Part shown: piece by piece, positions 9,834 to 44,590 of the stretch
Layout: each line of letters begins with the position of its first letter
Position numbering within the stretch: the first letter of the stretch is position 1
Assembly (NCBI RefSeq): GCF_003795125.1
Contig: NZ_CP027783.1
Location: forward strand, 1,426,001 to 1,490,000
Direction of reading: 5' to 3'
DNA: 64,000 nt
From: Tetragenococcus osmophilus
GTDB taxonomy: Bacteria; Bacillota; Bacilli; Lactobacillales; Enterococcaceae
Program-made: the position numbers and the translations under genes
The notes under the pieces: model-generated
The model's database searches: none
What the model saw: the letters and a program-made list of their open reading frames with translations, nothing else
Told to the model about the DNA's origin: nothing

Positions 9834-9947
9834 AAGTTGCTTTTCATTGGTTTTTATCAGCATCCTGTTCTGATAAAAGTTAGTGAAAAGAACTTCACTA
9901 ACGTAATGGCTCGCAGTGCTAGACACCGAGTTATTACGTTTTTTTTT
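9834..9947 (+). ncRNA. Predicted three-hairpin small RNA or trmL leader
   Basis: A stretch of about 114 nt between rlmA and trmL folds into three consecutive stems. They are TTTTATCAG/CTGATAAAA (9852-9878), GTTAGTGAA/TTCACTAAC (9879-9902) and a 12-pair GC-containing stem (9902-9938) ending in nine Ts. A consensus-like promoter lies directly upstream. It contains no ORF with a ribosome site. I do not recognise a known riboswitch or RNA family. About 95 nt separate the T-run from trmL, which may have its own start, so both a free sRNA and a transcription attenuator are possible. Confidence 0.6.
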
Positions 9948-10042: not shown

Positions 10043-10549
10043 TTGTTGAACCATGTTGCTTTATTTGAACCACTAATCCCGACAAATACCGGGAATATTT
10101 CTAGAACTTGTGCGGCTACAAATACAGCTTTACATTTGATTGAGCCTTTAGGTTTTTCAACAGATGATAAACACTTAAAACGAGCTGGTTTAGATTATTG
10201 GGATAATGTGGATATTACTTATCATAAAAGTTTGGAAGATTTTTTAGCTGTAGTAGGCGACGAGCCCCTACATTTAATCTCTAAGTTTTCGCATAAAATT
10301 TATAGCGAGGAGAACTTCGATGATGGACGCGATCACTATTTTCTTTTTGGCAAAGAGACGACCGGTTTACCAGAAGAATTTATGCGAGAAAACGAAGAAA
10401 AGTGTCTACGTTTGCCCATGAATGATACGCACGTACGCTCATTAAACTTAGCAAACACTGTAGTTACAGTTGTTTATGAAGCTTTACGCCAACAAGGTTA
10501 TCCTAATTTGGAATTGACGCACCACTATTATAACGATAAATTGGATTGA
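10043..10549 (+). CDS. trmL: tRNA (cytidine(34)-2'-O)-methyltransferase TrmL
   Basis: A SPOUT methyltransferase of 168 aa. The N-terminus [19 protein letters not shown] and the C-terminal knot segment [17 protein letters not shown] are diagnostic for TrmL, which 2'-O-methylates wobble position 34 of tRNA-Leu isoacceptors. The start is one of two adjacent TTG codons (10043 or 10046) behind AAGAGGAA; the second is better spaced. It lies just upstream of a phosphoglycerate-mutase-like gene. Confidence 0.93.
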
Positions 10550-10575
10550 TTGATAAAAAGGGGGGAGTTCGTAAA

Positions 10576-11205
10576 GTGAAGCTATATTTTACTAGACATG
10601 GTAAAACAGAGTGGAATAAGCAGCATCGTTTCCAAGGAATGAATGGAGACTCACCGCTATTACCTTCAAGTTTTGTTCAAATTCGAGCTCTAGGACGACA
10701 CTTACAAGATGTGCCTTTTGCTGCTGTTTATGCTAGTCCTTCTAAGCGGGCAAAGCAAACGGCTCAAGGAATTGTTAGTCAGTGGGAGCAGTCGGTACCT
10801 ATTTTCTATGATGCCAATTTAAAAGAGATGGGATATGGCAAAATAGAAGGAAAAAGTATTAGTAAAATGCATGAACAGTACCCAAAGACGTTAACAAATA
10901 TGCGACACCGCTTGGATCTTTATGATCCAACTCCCTTCAATGGTGAAACAGTGAGTGCGATGCTTGATCGTATGACGCAGACAATTGTTAATGCTTCTTA
11001 CCATTATGATCGTCCCGTGCTTTTTGTAGGTCATGGGGCTTCAATGACGGCGGCGATTCAATTTTTAGCCGGAAAGAGCTATGCTGAACTACGTGAAATG
11101 GGCGGATTGAAAAATAACAGTCTTTCGATTTTAGAAACAAATGAACAAAAGGAACCTTATGAATTAACCTTGTGGAATGACGTGAGTTTTCTTCCTGCTT
11201 TATAA
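10576..11205 (+). CDS. Histidine phosphatase superfamily protein (phosphoglycerate mutase-like)
   Basis: A 209-aa protein with the phosphohistidine motif RHG at residues 7-9 (FTRHGKTEWN) and the second catalytic histidine in VGHGASMTA. The sequence fits the cofactor-dependent mutase/phosphatase branch, but broad-specificity phosphatases look the same, so the substrate is not assigned. GTG at 10576 was chosen because GGGGGAG precedes it; the frame is open further back into trmL. The gene is followed directly by a palindrome array. Confidence 0.85.
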   Translation: MKLYFTRHGKTEWNKQHRFQGMNGDSPLLPSSFVQIRALGRHLQDVPFAAVYASPSKRAKQTAQGIVSQWEQSVPIFYDANLKEMGYGKIEGKSISKMHEQYPKTLTNMRHRLDLYDPTPFNGETVSAMLDRMTQTIVNASYHYDRPVLFVGHGASMTAAIQFLAGKSYAELREMGGLKNNSLSILETNEQKEPYELTLWNDVSFLPAL

Positions 11206-11271
11206 GTTAATTCAGGGAAAAGCTACTTAAAGTCAGTAGAATGCTTTACTAATGTCTTTAGACTACTAAAG

Positions 11272-11476
11272 TTATGTCCTGAAAATAGACTCAGTACATA
11301 AAGTAAGGTGACCTATGTCCTGAAGGTCAGCTCAGAACATAGCTTTAGTGGAGTTATGTCCTGAAAACCAGAATTTAGTTCAAAAAACGGGTAACTTATG
11401 TCCTGAAATCTAATTCAGGACATAAGTCGAACAAAGTGATGTACTGAGAGTTATTTCAGGACATAGGTCTTTTTTA
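11272..11476 (+). repeat. Tandem array 1 of ~31-bp palindromes with 41-bp period
   Basis: Five units occur with ATG cores at 11274, 11315, 11356, 11398 and 11439, giving steps of 41, 41, 42 and 41 bp. The best unit (11395-11426) is a perfect hairpin, CTTATGTCCTGAA with TTCAGGACATAAG around a 6-nt loop. Units 1, 2 and 5 carry one or a few mismatches, and unit 3 keeps only its left arm. The last arm runs into CTTTTTT at 11469-11475, so the array can also end transcription. Nothing else is seen in 11206-11562 apart from AT-rich sequence. The array is closely related to 43889-44126. Confidence 0.9.
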
Positions 11477-11583
11477 TTTAGTCACTTATTAGCTGTAGCA
11501 TTATTTTCAACTAGAAATAATAGGCTCACTTCATAAGCTAATAAGATAACTATTGTTTATACATGAAAGGAGCGACATGTCCG

Positions 11584-14100
11584 TTGCCAGAAGAATGGTA
11601 TATTATTGGTAAAATCGCGGCAGTTTTTTTTAGAAATCCTAATAATTTTTATAAAGTACTCTTAGTTAAAATTTCGGAAACAAATATGGATTCTACTGCT
11701 AAAGAAATCGTTGTTACGGGTAGTTTTGGTGAGATCCAAGAAGAAGAACTGTACCGTTTTTTTGGAGAGCCCGTCGTTCATCCCAAATATGGTGAACAGT
11801 TTAAAGCTAACGCTTACCAAAAAGAACAACCAACTTCAGAAAATGGGCTTATCTATTATCTTTCAAGTGATAATTTTCCAGGTATTGGAGAAAAAACAGC
11901 AGAAAAAATTGTCGATCTTTTGGGCGAAGATGCTATTGATAAGATCTTGGATGAACCAACGTTGTTAGAACAAATTTCTGGGCTAAATAAAAAAAAGCGA
12001 GAAATGTTAGTAGATACGATACGTTTAAATTACGGCATGGACAAAGCGATCGTGGGTTTAAATCGGTATGGTTTTGGAAGTCAATTAGCGTTTGCTATTT
12101 ATCAGACTTATAAAAACGAAACTTTAGAGATCATCGAAGAAAACCCTTATCAATTGGTGGAAGATATTGAGGGTATCGGTTTTAAAAAGGCGGATAACAT
12201 TGCCGAACAATTGGGGATTGATGCTACTTCTGATAAAAGAATTCGTGCTGCTATTTTACATCAAATCTTGCAACAATCGATGGAAACGGGAAATACTTAT
12301 ATTGCGGCTAAAGAGTTATTAGAGCAAGTTTTACATATGTTAGAAGATAGTCGTCCTGTAGAAATTGATCCAGAAAAAGTTGCTAACGGAGTAATCGAAT
12401 TAGTAGAAGAGGGAAAAATTCAACAAGAAGAAACTAACTTGTTCGAAAATAGCCTATATTTTGCTGAATGGGGAATAGCTTCAAGTATCCAACGCTTATT
12501 ACAACAACAAAAGGAAATCAATTATTCCGAAGAGAAGTTAAATAAAAATCTACGTAAATTGGAAAAACGTTTGGATATTGTTTACGGCGATTCCCAAGAG
12601 GAAGCGATAAAAAAAGCGATACGATCTCCGTTGTTTTTATTAACAGGGGGGCCTGGAACAGGGAAGACCACAGTTATCGATGGTATTGTTCAATTATTTG
12701 CTGAATTAAATGATATCTCTTTAGACCCGAGTCAATACTCAGAAGAAACTTTTCCTGTGTTATTAGCGGCACCTACCGGACGCGCTGCCAAACGTATGAA
12801 TGAGACAACGGGCCTACCTAGTAGTACCATTCATCGTTTATTAGGTTTAAATGGGCGGGAAAACAAGGCAAAAAATACTGACCCTAAGGAACTTGAGGGT
12901 GGGCTTTTAATTGTTGATGAAATGTCCATGGTGGATACTTGGTTGGCCAATACTTTGTTTAAAGCTATTCCTGATAGTATGCAGGTTATTTTTGTAGGCG
13001 ATAAGGATCAACTTCCTTCCGTAGGACCAGGGCAAATTTTGCATGATCTATTGAATATCCCAGATATTCCTCAAAAAGAACTAACCGAAATCTATCGTCA
13101 AGGAGACGGTTCTAGTATTATTTCTTTAGCTCATGAAATAAAAAATGGAGCGTTACCTGAGGATTTCACCCAAAACCAAAACGATCGTTCTTATTTTGCT
13201 TGCCAAGCGCAACAAATTGAGCCTTTAATCTCTAAAGTAGCTACAAAAGCGAAACAAAAAGGCTTTACACCGCAAGATATACAGGTTTTAGCTCCTATGT
13301 ATAAAGGGCCAGCCGGTATTAACGCCTTAAATAAAATGATGCAAGAAATCTTCAATCCGAATGTAGATCAGACAAAAAAGGAAGTTTCATTTAATAATGT
13401 GGTTTATCGTATTGGCGATAAGGTTCTTCAGCTGGTTAATGCCCCTGAAGATAATGTATTTAATGGGGACATGGGAGAAATCACGGGGATCATTTATGCG
13501 AAAGATTCCGAAGACAAAGTGGATGAACTAGTTATTGCTTTTGACGCAAATGAAGTGAAATATAAACGTAATGAATGGAATAAGATCACTTTATCTTATT
13601 GCTGCTCGATTCATAAAGCTCAAGGCAATGAGTTTAAGATGGTTATTTTGCCGATGGTTAACCAGTATTCTAGAATGCTTCAGCGCAATTTATTGTATAC
13701 AGCTGTGACGCGAAGTAAAGAAATGCTAATTTTACTAGGGGAATTGTCTGCTTATCAAAGATGTGTAGAGCAAGTGTCGACTTTACGCTTAACTGCGCTT
13801 AAAGAACGAATTAACGGGATTGATTCGATTTCTCAAGCTATGCGATTAAAAATTTCAACTTACGAAAATGAACAGGAAGAAGCTCCCTTTGAAAAAGAAC
13901 ACAAAGCAGTAAAAAATAGTAAACCTAAGATAGAATCCGACTCAGCTAAAGTGGAGTCTTTTGACTTGTTTGCGCAAGAGACGCCAGCTCCTTCTGGGCC
14001 GATTCAATTAACGCCAGAACTGATACAAAATCATGCGATTGATCCAATGATTGGTATGGGGGAAATATCTCCTTATGATTTTCAAGTAACACAAAAATAA
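11584..14100 (+). CDS. recD2: RecD2-type ATP-dependent DNA helicase
   Basis: A long 5'-3' helicase of about 838 aa, the RecD2 class of bacteria without RecBCD. An N-terminal OB-like region is followed by helix-hairpin-helix repeats (FPGIGEKTAEKIV; IEGIGFKKADNIA). Next come the SF1 motor with Walker A GGPGTGKT near residue 355, VDEMSMVD, and the C-terminal SYCCSIHKAQGNEF and YTAVTRSK motifs. An ATG at 11563 is in frame, but AAGGAG lies downstream of it, so TTG at 11584 is the more likely start. The last 80 residues are a low-complexity acidic tail. Confidence 0.93.
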   Translation: MPEEWYIIGKIAAVFFRNPNNFYKVLLVKISETNMDSTAKEIVVTGSFGEIQEEELYRFFGEPVVHPKYGEQFKANAYQKEQPTSENGLIYYLSSDNFPGIGEKTAEKIVDLLGEDAIDKILDEPTLLEQISGLNKKKREMLVDTIRLNYGMDKAIVGLNRYGFGSQLAFAIYQTYKNETLEIIEENPYQLVEDIEGIGFKKADNIAEQLGIDATSDKRIRAAILHQILQQSMETGNTYIAAKELLEQVLHMLEDSRPVEIDPEKVANGVIELVEEGKIQQEETNLFENSLYFAEWGIASSIQRLLQQQKEINYSEEKLNKNLRKLEKRLDIVYGDSQEEAIKKAIRSPLFLLTGGPGTGKTTVIDGIVQLFAELNDISLDPSQYSEETFPVLLAAPTGRAAKRMNETTGLPSSTIHRLLGLNGRENKAKNTDPKELEGGLLIVDEMSMVDTWLANTLFKAIPDSMQVIFVGDKDQLPSVGPGQILHDLLNIPDIPQKELTEIYRQGDGSSIISLAHEIKNGALPEDFTQNQNDRSYFACQAQQIEPLISKVATKAKQKGFTPQDIQVLAPMYKGPAGINALNKMMQEIFNPNVDQTKKEVSFNNVVYRIGDKVLQLVNAPEDNVFNGDMGEITGIIYAKDSEDKVDELVIAFDANEVKYKRNEWNKITLSYCCSIHKAQGNEFKMVILPMVNQYSRMLQRNLLYTAVTRSKEMLILLGELSAYQRCVEQVSTLRLTALKERINGIDSISQAMRLKISTYENEQEEAPFEKEHKAVKNSKPKIESDSAKVESFDLFAQETPAPSGPIQLTPELIQNHAIDPMIGMGEISPYDFQVTQK

Positions 14101-18835: not shown

Positions 18836-20134
18836 ATGAGATTCATTGAAAAGATTACGAGTCATCAAAATATCACGCAAGCCATCGAACAGGTCAAAAA
18901 GAATAAAGGGGCTCCGGGTGTTGATGAGATGACAGTCGATGAACTCGACCATTATTTCTATCAACATGGACATACCCTTGTTCAGGAGATTCGGTCGATG
19001 ACCTACCGACCAAAGGCGGTTAAAAGAGTTTATATCCCTAAATCTGATGGGAAGCAAAGACCTTTAGGGATTCCAAGTGTGGTGGACCGTGTGGTGCAAC
19101 AGGCAACTGCGCAACAATTAAGTCGCATCTTCGATGTCCACTTCAGCGAAACCAGTTATGGTTTCCGCCCGGGTCGAAGTGCTCATCAAGCGATTGAAAA
19201 AGTCCTTGATTACTTGAATGAAGGCTATGAATGGCTCATTGATATGGATATTGAGAAATATTTTGATACAGTTAATCATGATCAATTAATCTCGACCCTT
19301 AGAGAACGGGTCAAAGATAGAGAAACCCTTCATTTAATACGTGTTTTCTTAAAAGCAGGTATTATGGAGAATGGCTTCGTTAGCCCGAACGAAACCGGAG
19401 TTCCGCAAGGAGGTCCGTTAAGCCCAGTTTTAGCGAATATTTATCTGGATAAACTGGATAAAGAATTAGAAGCAAGGGGGCTGCATTTCGTTCGTTACGC
19501 GGATGATACGGATATTTTTGTCAAAAGCGAGATGGCAGCCAATCGAGTGATGAAATCTATTACTGGTTGGATTGAAAGAAAACTATTCTTGCAAATCAAT
19601 GTCACAAAAACTAAGGTCGTACGACCGACACAAAGTCAATTTTTAGGATTTACCTTTTGGAAGAACCAAAAAGGTTGGCAGTGTAAACCGAGTAAAGTCA
19701 GTAAAACAAAACTCTATGACAAAACCAAAGAAGTTCTTAAAAGGAAACATGCCGTGTCGCGACCTTTAGCTGTGACATTTACAAAGCTGAACCAGATTAT
19801 AAGAGGCTGGATCAATTACTACCGTATCGGCAGTATGAAAACCTATCTAGCGAAGTTTGGTCAATGGTTACGACATAAAGTCCGTGTCATTATTATAAAG
19901 CAATGGAAACTTCCGCGACGAATCTATATGAATTTACAACAATTGAATCGACTATTCAATTGTCATTTCAAGAAAGAAGACATTTATAAGGTCGCTAATT
20001 CTAGATTAGGTTGGTATAGGAAATGCGGGATGGACGTTGTCAACTTTACGTTAAGTCCGAAAGTTTTAGCCATAAAGAAAAAGGATCGACCTGGATTGGT
20101 TGATCCTTTATCCTACTATCTAAATAAAGCGTGA
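18836..20134 (+). CDS. ltrA: Group II intron reverse transcriptase/maturase
   Basis: The 432-aa product has the full set of RT blocks, including SYGFRPGRSAHQA, the catalytic YADD at residues 221-224, and LGFTFWK. A maturase domain (IRGWINYYRIGSM) follows. The length and lack of an HNH endonuclease domain fit the class C group. AGAGGAGGAA precedes the ATG. The frame is intact, so splicing and mobility are plausible. Confidence 0.95.
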   Translation: MRFIEKITSHQNITQAIEQVKKNKGAPGVDEMTVDELDHYFYQHGHTLVQEIRSMTYRPKAVKRVYIPKSDGKQRPLGIPSVVDRVVQQATAQQLSRIFDVHFSETSYGFRPGRSAHQAIEKVLDYLNEGYEWLIDMDIEKYFDTVNHDQLISTLRERVKDRETLHLIRVFLKAGIMENGFVSPNETGVPQGGPLSPVLANIYLDKLDKELEARGLHFVRYADDTDIFVKSEMAANRVMKSITGWIERKLFLQINVTKTKVVRPTQSQFLGFTFWKNQKGWQCKPSKVSKTKLYDKTKEVLKRKHAVSRPLAVTFTKLNQIIRGWINYYRIGSMKTYLAKFGQWLRHKVRVIIIKQWKLPRRIYMNLQQLNRLFNCHFKKEDIYKVANSRLGWYRKCGMDVVNFTLSPKVLAIKKKDRPGLVDPLSYYLNKA

Positions 20135-22566: not shown

Positions 22567-22632
22567 GAATTATATAAAAAAAGATTGACGCAAACACCTT
22601 TTCTATGATAAGGTGTTTGACGTTAATGATTA

Positions 22633-22737
22633 AGTGTACCGAAGACAGTAGGTGGCGGATGTCGTAAATCCTACCGAGGACTTTTATTGATGATTGTCAA
22701 TAGACCCTCTATGTCTGCGGTGACATAGAGTTTTTTT
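22633..22737 (+). promoter_or_regulatory. Ribosomal protein L10 leader
   Basis: The sequence GTACCGAAGACAGTAGG, the GGCGGATGTC segment and CCTACCGAGG form the conserved core of the L10 leader, which binds the L10(L12)4 complex. It ends in a terminator-like stem CTCTATGTC/GACATAGAG (22707-22730) and seven Ts, so control is probably by attenuation. A separate 10-bp hairpin at 22591-22619 lies between rplA and the leader. Confidence 0.88.
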
Positions 22738-22783
22738 ATTGTAAAAAAACTCTCGCAGTAAAATTAGGAGGTGAAAGAAAAAG

Positions 22784-43194: not shown

Positions 43195-43878
43195 ATGCAA
43201 AATGAAATGATGCACCGACCAGTAGTAAAACCTGAACTGGTTGATTACATGCGTACTGCCCAAAAGCCGTTAACGGGTAAACTACATGAGATCGAAAAAG
43301 ATGCTAATAAACGAGGGGTTCCGATTATTCCACATGAAACCGTGGTATTTATGGAATTTTTATTAGGGCAAGTTAAACCTCAGCAAATTTTAGAAGTTGG
43401 CACAGCGATAGGCTTTTCTGCCAGTTTAATGGCTCAGTTTGTAGGAGACAAGGGGCACGTAACAACAATTGATCGCTTTGACAAAATGATTGAAGAAGCA
43501 AAAGAAACTTTTCGCTATGTAGGTACAGAAGATAAAATTACTTTACTCGAAGGACAGGCAGCTGATGTTTTACCTACTTTACAGGGAAAGTTTGATTTTA
43601 TTTTTATGGACAGCGCAAAATCAAAATATATAGAATTTTTACCAGATTGCTTACGTTTACTAAAAAAAGAAGGAATTTTGATGGTAGATGATATTTTTCA
43701 AGGAGGTACCATTTTACAGTCTGAAAAAGAAATACCGCGCGGCAAACGGGGCATTCATAAGAAATTAAATCAATTTCTAGACGTTATTAATAACCATCCT
43801 GACTTAACCTCTACTCTAATTCCATTAGGAGATGGAGTTGCACTGATTACTAAAGAAGCAGAGCAAGTGAATCTTTAA
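43195..43878 (+). CDS. O-methyltransferase, TrmR/YrrM-like
   Basis: A 227-aa class I SAM methyltransferase with motif I ILEVGTAIGFSASLMA and FIFMDSAKSKYIEFL. The sequence fits the YrrM/TrmR branch, which methylates 5-hydroxyuridine at tRNA position 34; small-molecule O-methyltransferases are close relatives. It is followed at once by palindrome array 2. Confidence 0.85.
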   Translation: MQNEMMHRPVVKPELVDYMRTAQKPLTGKLHEIEKDANKRGVPIIPHETVVFMEFLLGQVKPQQILEVGTAIGFSASLMAQFVGDKGHVTTIDRFDKMIEEAKETFRYVGTEDKITLLEGQAADVLPTLQGKFDFIFMDSAKSKYIEFLPDCLRLLKKEGILMVDDIFQGGTILQSEKEIPRGKRGIHKKLNQFLDVINNHPDLTSTLIPLGDGVALITKEAEQVNL

Positions 43879-43888
43879 TTATTTTAGA

Positions 43889-44126
43889 TTGATGTCCTGA
43901 ATATAATCTCAGGACATTAATCGAGAAGACTTATGACCTGAAATGCAGCTCAGGACATAGATATCTTAGACTTATGACCTGAAATCCGACTCAGGACATA
44001 GATATCTTGGACTTATGTCCTGAAATCCAATTCAGGACATAGATATCTTAGACTTATGTTCCAAAAGCTGAAATTTTATTTAAAAAACAGCTTACTTATG
44101 ATCTGAAACCAATTTCAGGCCATAAG
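43889..44126 (+). repeat. Tandem array 2 of ~31-bp palindromes with 41-bp period
   Basis: Six units occur with ATG cores at 43892, 43933, 43974, 44015, 44056 and 44098, giving steps of 41, 41, 41, 41 and 42 bp. Units 2-4 match CTTATGWCCTGAA...CTCAGGACATAG and are joined by nearly identical 10-bp spacers (ATATCTTAGA). Unit 5 has lost its palindrome but resembles unit 3 of array 1. The last unit is followed by TTTTT at 44127-44131. Nothing coding is seen in 43879-44240. Confidence 0.92.
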
Positions 44127-44240
44127 TTTTTAGTTTTTAACAAAAAAGTAGAAACGCCCAAAAGAAATTGAGAAAACCGTAAAAAGTAATTGACATTACT
44201 AGGAGGTTTTCCTATAATTATCTTTGTTGTCAAATCAATT

Positions 44241-44313
44241 GTCGCAGTAGCTCAGTGGATAGAGCATCCGCCTTCTAAGCGGACGGTCGGGGGTTCAAAT
44301 CCCTCCTGTGACG
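44241..44313 (+). tRNA. tRNA-Arg (anticodon UCU)
   Basis: A 73-nt cloverleaf: acceptor GTCGCAG/CTGTGAC with one G-U pair, D arm GCTCAGTGGATAGAGC, anticodon stem TCCGC/GCGGA with loop CTTCTAA (anticodon TCT), and T loop GTTCAAATC. The 3' CCA is not encoded. Confidence 0.96.
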
Positions 44314-44323
44314 TTATAATTAG

Positions 44324-44479: not shown

Positions 44480-44590
44480 GTTGTAATTGTGGGCTTTCCT
44501 GCAGCTACAACCGCTCTGATCAAGTTTTAAGTGCTAATATAGCCGCTTGGGATGGCGAGTCTAAGTTTATTATTAAGGAGGTGCACAAGC
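44480..44590 (+). promoter_or_regulatory. Probable L21 leader
   Basis: A leader of about 110 nt lies between promoter and rplU with no ORF. Its position and length fit the L21 leader described in low-GC Gram-positives. I identify it from context and partial pairing only. Confidence 0.5.

Follow-up and report, generated by a model that had tools for sequence, protein, structure and literature searches.

The two palindrome arrays in the analysed stretch of Tetragenococcus osmophilus DNA (hereafter the window; 64,000 bp, G000:C1:1426001-1490000, from a genome of 2.38 Mb) are best explained as members of a dispersed, non-autonomous and modular family of palindromic intergenic repeats of Tetragenococcus, in which the module was copied and the half-sites would be read in trans; we put the probability of this explanation at roughly 0.55. 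Alignable modules in 11 arrays, the lack of both window arrays in outgroup species and differences in unit number between T. osmophilus and T. muriaticus were observed directly. The repeat family is real and modular and was probably mobile in the past, and it is BOX/BIME-like in kind, yet by the features tested it is not a member of BOX or REP.

Anatomy of the window arrays and of the family

Array 1 consists of five units with steps of 41, 41, 42 and 41 bp, and array 2 of six units with steps of 41, 41, 41, 41 and 42 bp, in agreement with the preliminary description (Table 1). Both have the same core pattern, which was matched 18 times in the window (up to 3 mismatches, both strands) compared with a mean of 0.30 in shuffled sequence (sd 0.59, maximum 3, 100 shuffles), and both lie directly 3' of a plus-strand gene, the gap to the ORF being 69 bp for array 1 and 14 bp for array 2. 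In each array the 42-bp step belongs to the altered unit D, where AAAAAAC and the TAACTTATG/TTACTTATG junctions are present as claimed earlier. The altered units (ATGTCCTGAAAACCAGAATTTAGTTCAAAAAACGGGTAACTT in array 1 and ATGTTCCAAAAGCTGAAATTTTATTTAAAAAACAGCTTACTT in array 2) resemble each other, with 69% identity over 42 bp and no gap. The unit described earlier as having lost its right arm represents one version of a special central unit, whose length is 73 bp in one T. osmophilus array and in several arrays of sister species. Two steps past D a recognisable unit is found in array 1 and none in array 2.

Table 1. Positions of the array units and neighbouring genes in the window (U, 41-bp unit; D, altered central unit).
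Feature	Position	Strand	Remark
Histidine phosphatase family gene	10546..11205	+	Upstream of array 1; PF00300, E 5e-44
Array 1, whole (U U D U U)	11269..11469	+	
Array 1, unit 1 core	11274..11299	+	
Array 1, unit 2 core	11315..11340	+	
Array 1, altered central unit D	11356..11397	+	42 bp; aligns with D of array 2
Array 1, unit 4 core	11398..11423	+	
Array 1, unit 5 core	11439..11464	+	After D, where T. muriaticus has one recognised unit less
RecD2-type helicase gene	11563..14100	+	Downstream of array 1; PF14490, E 3.2e-34
O-methyltransferase-like gene	43195..43878	+	Upstream of array 2; Pfam PF01596, E 1.1e-27
Array 2, whole	43887..44128	+	Outermost half-site to outermost half-site; polarity mostly class R
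Array 2, unit 1 core palindrome	43892..43917	+	
Array 2, unit 2 core	43933..43958	+	
Array 2, unit 3 core	43974..43999	+	Part of the two-unit excess over T. muriaticus
Array 2, unit 4 core	44015..44040	+	Part of the two-unit excess over T. muriaticus
Array 2, altered central unit D	44056..44097	+	42 bp; left half-site retained, A-rich stretch in place of right half-site
Array 2, unit 6 core	44098..44123	+	
tRNA-Arg(TCT) gene	44240..44314	+	Downstream of array 2

A TTGACA/TATAAT sequence, read by eye as promoter-like, precedes the tRNA-Arg(TCT) gene and is present too in five aligned outgroup sequences. Elsewhere in the window, group II intron RNA domains (Rfam RF02001, RF01998 and RF00029; 18413-20219) surround a 432-aa ORF (18836-20134), and further Rfam matches are a 23S-methyl RNA motif (9841-9945), an L10 leader (22621-22746) and an L21 leader (44499-44572).

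Each unit has the form ATGTCCTGAA N6 TTCAGGACAT; its outer arms resemble GACTT and AAGTC, the linker measures 5 bp, and dyad centres follow one another at 20.5-bp intervals. The half-sites are inverted, about 15 bp long and of the sequence GACTTATGTCCTGAA in what we call type I; they are conserved, the loop and spacer centres are nearly free and the period shows no drift. The units are also polar: the consensus of an EM alignment is GATCTATGTCCTGAATTTAATTTCAGGACATAAGTC for one orientation, and the window arrays mostly have the other.

Genome-wide, the core (up to 3 mismatches) gave at least 125 forward and at least 127 reverse matches, compared with 4 and 4 for a reversed-pattern control, and the stretches fetched around core matches contained 30 arrays of at least two units. 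Steps were counted in 45 arrays, 30 from T. osmophilus, 14 from T. muriaticus and 1 from the Tetragenococcus genome G008. The 159 steps comprise 130 of 41 bp, 24 of 83 bp (41+42), 2 of 42 bp, 2 of 114 bp (41+73) and 1 of 124 bp, which spans a stretch of Ns in L097 of T. muriaticus. Of the 27 T. osmophilus arrays in which at least three units were recognised, 20 have exactly one off-register step, as do 7 of 13 T. muriaticus arrays (the N-run array left out), and none has two; the counts of the two species are not independent because there are orthologous pairs among them. The 7 of 27 arrays with no such step include the homogeneous arrays 600717, 753489, 1545306 and 2234399; array 286310, also without one, has a D-like unit beyond its last recognised unit.

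None of the 30 arrays overlaps a called ORF (ORFs taken longest first, at least 50 aa). When ORFs of at least 100 aa are considered, 21 arrays lie in co-directional gaps, 7 in convergent and 2 in divergent ones. Comparison of the 150-bp flanks of the 30 arrays with each other revealed no common flanking module; three matches of 19-43 bp (E 2e-4 to 7e-4) were found, each joining two arrays only. Nor was there an excess of target duplications in these arrays, the longest word common to the flanks averaging 4.83 compared with 4.79 after permutation, and inverted repeats in the flanks gave no general signal (5.90 compared with 5.85 permuted, p 0.415). Target duplications of old insertions may have eroded.

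Orthologous sites, unit turnover and species distribution

Empty sites, proposed earlier as a sign of mobility, were found for both arrays. At the array 1 site, 9-17 bp separate the matched flanks in all six outgroup species viewed (G001, G003, G005, G006, G007 and G008; G004 was left out as its upstream match was too poor to view), compared with about 365 bp in T. osmophilus. Array 1 itself makes up some 200 of these ~365 bp, and about 150 bp are extra non-array sequence. Parsimony places the gain of array 1 in the lineage that T. osmophilus and T. muriaticus share. Array 2 is absent from five species (G001, G003, G004, G005 and G007), where the empty-site junction cannot be fixed to the base because the short intergenic stretch aligns poorly; its flanking gene was not found in G008. 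At the array 2 site in G006 about 1.6 kb separates the flanking matches (G006:C3:162873-164489).

Between T. osmophilus and T. muriaticus the arrays differ in unit number. Array 2 has exactly two units (82 bp) fewer in T. muriaticus (four units compared with six in T. osmophilus, D included), the two D units being much alike; array 1 has an alignable D in T. muriaticus and one recognised unit fewer. The near-identical linkers of array 2 units 2-4 (AGATATCTTA/G), which had been counted towards the copied module, are indeed there but belong to this later change in unit number. Sites 2151671 and 235586 carry heterogeneous arrays with D in T. osmophilus and homogeneous ones in T. muriaticus. At sites 1545306 and 753489 there are no clean empty sites; T. 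muriaticus keeps half-site remnants, and these sites therefore look like contractions. Sequence identity between the two species at array loci swings from ~77 to 99% by tract. Large parts appear to have been exchanged between T. osmophilus and T. muriaticus, as these values suggest, and arrays in high-identity tracts are not independent evidence.

EFAR elements of Enterococcus faecalis insert into stem-loop targets, the stems being kept at their ends. An arrangement that might be of this kind was seen at one T. muriaticus site, although the flanks of the 30 arrays gave no general inverted-repeat signal. T. muriaticus site C25 was rejected as a clean gain inside an intrinsic terminator: in G001 the second repeat next to the array is present as well, a remnant of a unit may lie at the corresponding position, and the direction of change is therefore uncertain. 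This second dispersed repeat, of ~130 bp with inverted ends AAATATCCGAACTATA...TATAGTTCGGATATTT, adjoins the C25 array (L089, about 2365-2495), lies between terminator-like stems and has matches in G000, G001, G003, G005, G006, G007 and G008. At another site, L128, and its orthologues L129 (G008), L131 (G003) and L137 (G007), a terminator-like hairpin loop holds short hairpins that differ by species.

Across a genome collection that possibly leaves out T. osmophilus's own records, an exact core pattern had matches in T. muriaticus alone, in 7 stretches. The two-unit covariance model R1, run with stricter filters when more than 40 genomes were covered, had matches in 6 of the 105 genomes of Enterococcaceae covered, and these 6 are all from Tetragenococcus (nine species included); matches were strong in G000, G002 (T. 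muriaticus) and G008 and weak, at a single locus per genome with E 1e-5 to 2e-4, in G003, G005 and G006. The family genomes outside Tetragenococcus, which may not include E. faecalis, gave no match. Other core types occupy the same 41-bp lattice, namely ATGTACTGA and ATGTCCTATT arrays in G008, ATGTCCGATA in G003, ATGTGCTAA in T. muriaticus C77 and ATGTTGTATT in G006 and T. osmophilus (321367). The central unit is exactly 73 bp in L041 (T. osmophilus), in L144, L147 and L148 (G008), in L191 and L192 (G003) and in L196 (T. muriaticus), and 72 bp in L146; the 42-bp D may have arisen from it by shortening.

Array 2 had no match in plasmid and phage records (distant mode, E 1e-5). The one viral-contig match, a single palindrome with no lattice within 320 bases, was set aside. 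Among the publications listed, as far as their titles and the openings of their abstracts go, there was no account of such arrays, and the excerpts of PMC8249745, on T. halophilus strains, do not mention them.

Possible sequence recognition compared with pairing of the arms

Within type I, pairing of the arms overall did not exceed that of independent columns, whether taken across the loop or across the spacer (56 two-unit rows, including 5 of G008; also 186 units of T. osmophilus and T. muriaticus). Here 46 cells changed on both sides, with 60.2 +/- 9.7 expected; in a single-pair test 3 of 35 pairs exceeded shuffles at p<0.02 (z 3.7, 3.5 and 2.3), and G-C at positions 9/16 was rare (3 of 158). 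In the comparison between types, both sides had changed in 83 cells, compared with 43.2 +/- 6.4, a count reached in 0 of 500 shuffles and one that kinship among units can inflate. The cross-type alignment consisted of 51 hand-picked units, with central and poorly matching units left out; 42 came from outer-arm-pattern loci, model matches or the G008 core search and 9 were type I units from T. osmophilus. The outer-arm pattern dictates the outer arms but leaves free the inner positions, where covariation is strongest. We read these data as half-sites matched to a trans factor that is not the same in all types; constrained arms and a single founder palindrome for every type would give a similar picture. 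A small hairpin within the altered unit (e.g. AGCCT-GAAAA-AGGCC) was considered and dropped, since it looked compensatory by eye in some arrays but fails in others.

The same data bear on the possibility that the arrays are binding sites of a host DNA-binding protein, nucleoid-organising or regulatory, with dyads 20.5 bp (about two helical turns) apart on one face and selection keeping both half-sites and lattice. The conserved half-sites beside nearly free centres, the constant period, the lack of arm covariation within type I and the joint change of both half-sites between types would all be expected of such sites. Against this stand the absence of both window arrays from the orthologous outgroup sites viewed, the confinement of model matches to six Tetragenococcus genomes, three of them weakly matched, the variation of unit number between close relatives, and the finding of no shared neighbour class among the six adjacent proteins tested, and we regard binding sites as a rather unlikely origin of the arrays.

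Less probable still is a role as structured RNA, in which transcribed hairpin arrays at gene ends stabilise or terminate mRNA. Array 2 folds far better than shuffled sequence on both strands (z -10.1 and -10.8), though any palindrome array would do so. Array polarity agrees with gene direction in 15 of the 21 co-directional cases (two-sided p 0.078; mixed arrays collapsed by eye), and the palindromes are retained across core types. However, type I pairing is overall no better than that of independent arms, the two genes at the array 1 site are closely packed in six outgroup species, and no Rfam match at gathering score fell on the arrays in the window or at five other array loci. When the search of these five loci was extended to E 1, sub-threshold rows overlapped arrays in L024, L032 and L089 (E 0.05-0.84).

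The proposed copied module and its relation to known repeats

The altered unit was examined in 19 T. osmophilus arrays, 11 of which were chosen and oriented by eye from that unit. In the 11 chosen arrays the altered units align ungapped over 42 bp after reverse-complementing 8; over the middle 30 columns their mean identity is 53.5%, compared with 29.3% for a shuffle that ignores the picking, and arrays 1 and 2 are 67% identical. A test of the 19 altered units that included the arm columns was set aside because it cannot separate homology of the centre from conserved arms. Loop and spacer sequences of the 11 arrays (units scoring under 14 of 20 excluded) agree more at the same position relative to D (0.496, 181 comparisons) than at different positions (0.430, 544 comparisons), with 0 of 1000 permutations reaching this difference. 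The result was retained, at 0 of 1000 permutations each, without array 299242, which resembles 296466 (0.490 compared with 0.436), and without 299242 and both window arrays (0.501 compared with 0.434). The window arrays compared with 8 others of the chosen set gave 0.471 for same and 0.439 for different positions (n=50 and 153).

With all 19 arrays, oriented by unit polarity instead, the values were 0.471 and 0.448 (0 of 300 permutations), and 0.469 and 0.451 when 299242 was removed (1 of 300). The 8 unchosen arrays alone gave no positional signal (0.456 compared with 0.468, reached by 262 of 300 permutations), and their central 42-bp unit has different content. By subset, therefore, a copied module is supported in 11 arrays and not shown in 8. 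The preliminary description had derived both window arrays from one multi-unit module copied whole and had proposed comparing the place of the degenerate unit in other arrays: a multi-unit module is supported for both window arrays and at least nine others, 11 of 19 aligning with same-position units more alike, but is not shown for the remaining 8 of 19 off-register arrays.

Those 8 arrays would fit a history free of module copying, in which slippage enlarged every array independently from one palindrome, as would the homogeneous arrays and the 7 of 27 with no off-register step. Slippage is contradicted in the 11 chosen arrays by the alignable altered units and same-position similarity, and at most one off-register unit per array also speaks against it; we hold it to be very improbable. 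A CRISPR array or a relative of one, suggested by palindromic repeats at regular spacing and by the CRISPR loci that T. halophilus strains carry according to the excerpts of PMC8249745, can practically be dismissed, because the linkers between full palindromes are only 5 bp whereas in CRISPR long and unique spacers separate constant repeats, the CRISPR repeats given in those excerpts are other sequences, and the arrays lie at 30 separate places.

Among described families, BOX of Streptococcus pneumoniae is, in the available text of PMC3049150, a composite repeat in which tandem boxB copies, varying in number, stand between the end modules boxA and boxC. Our arrays resemble it in the variable number of tandem middle units, as in the six and four units of array 2, and likeness extends to the predicted hairpins, over-representation between convergent genes and strain variability described there; they differ in having no common flanking module in place of boxA and boxC and in that the distinct module is central. 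REP/BIME elements, as presented in excerpts of PMC2817692, are regularly spaced, species-specific extragenic palindromes arranged in modules and associated with RAYT transposases, and modified REPs preserve their palindromes. Many regularly spaced extragenic palindromes in a modular arrangement are common to both, but no RAYT was found adjoining the Tetragenococcus arrays, in which the half-sites form a fixed lattice of 41 bp with a special unit at the centre. The GTAG or CGTC tag that the accessible part of PMC3733652 gives as a feature of one end of most REPs appears neither in the column frequencies of 203 units nor in the EM consensus. Presence and absence at orthologous sites, found for both window arrays, is MITE-like, whereas the 30 arrays show no target-site duplication signal. 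EFAR of E. faecalis, reportedly described by Venditti et al. in 2007, is said to comprise modular intergenic stem-loop repeats of variable length. Efa-1 is an intergenic double-hairpin family of the same species (excerpts of PMC2267715). EFAR and Efa-1 share with our arrays the bacterial family and the intergenic stem-loop character, but have a pair of adjacent stem-loops and no 41-bp lattice.

A search for a mobilising enzyme found one Y1 transposase gene in T. osmophilus, one in T. muriaticus and equal-scoring genes in G005, G006 and G007, the last carrying it though no array was detected there; no half-site lies in the stretches of 3.4 kb (T. osmophilus) and 2.6 kb (T. muriaticus) that contain the Y1 genes, whereas a cognate RAYT would be a Y1 transposase with the palindrome at its flanks. 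No transposase was noticed between the closely spaced arrays of L022 or those of L024, the one protein tested in each being ordinary and the other ORFs listed only.

In the explanation that we prefer, the module would be an inverted half-site lattice of two 41-bp units, one special central unit and two more 41-bp units, the central unit being 73 bp (one T. osmophilus array and several in sister species) or 42 bp (most off-register T. osmophilus arrays). The whole module would be copied into intergenic sites, and single units or unit pairs would afterwards be gained and lost in place. Copying would need a protein, probably a transposase or recombinase, that acts in trans and recognises the half-site; we infer such a reader because half-site sequences are kept within a type, whereas between types the two halves change jointly. 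Any influence on adjacent genes, for example through hairpins at mRNA ends, would be secondary. The 8 unchosen arrays, the failure to find an enzyme, target duplications or a flanking module, the ~150 bp extra at array 1, for which copying does not account, and the remnants at 1545306 and 753489 weigh against this explanation.

More tentatively, and with the odds against it, the arrays might represent a genus-wide non-autonomous class in which a dyad lattice surrounds a special central palindrome and the half-site is coupled to a repeatedly changed trans recogniser, hence the 41-41-73-41-41 layout with differing cores across sister species and even in one genome. The genus offers several core types on one lattice together with window arrays that are present or absent at orthologous sites. 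The split arm signal, free within a type and joint between types, points to recognition in trans and makes the search for a recogniser testable, and the differing unit numbers of close relatives might help in strain typing.
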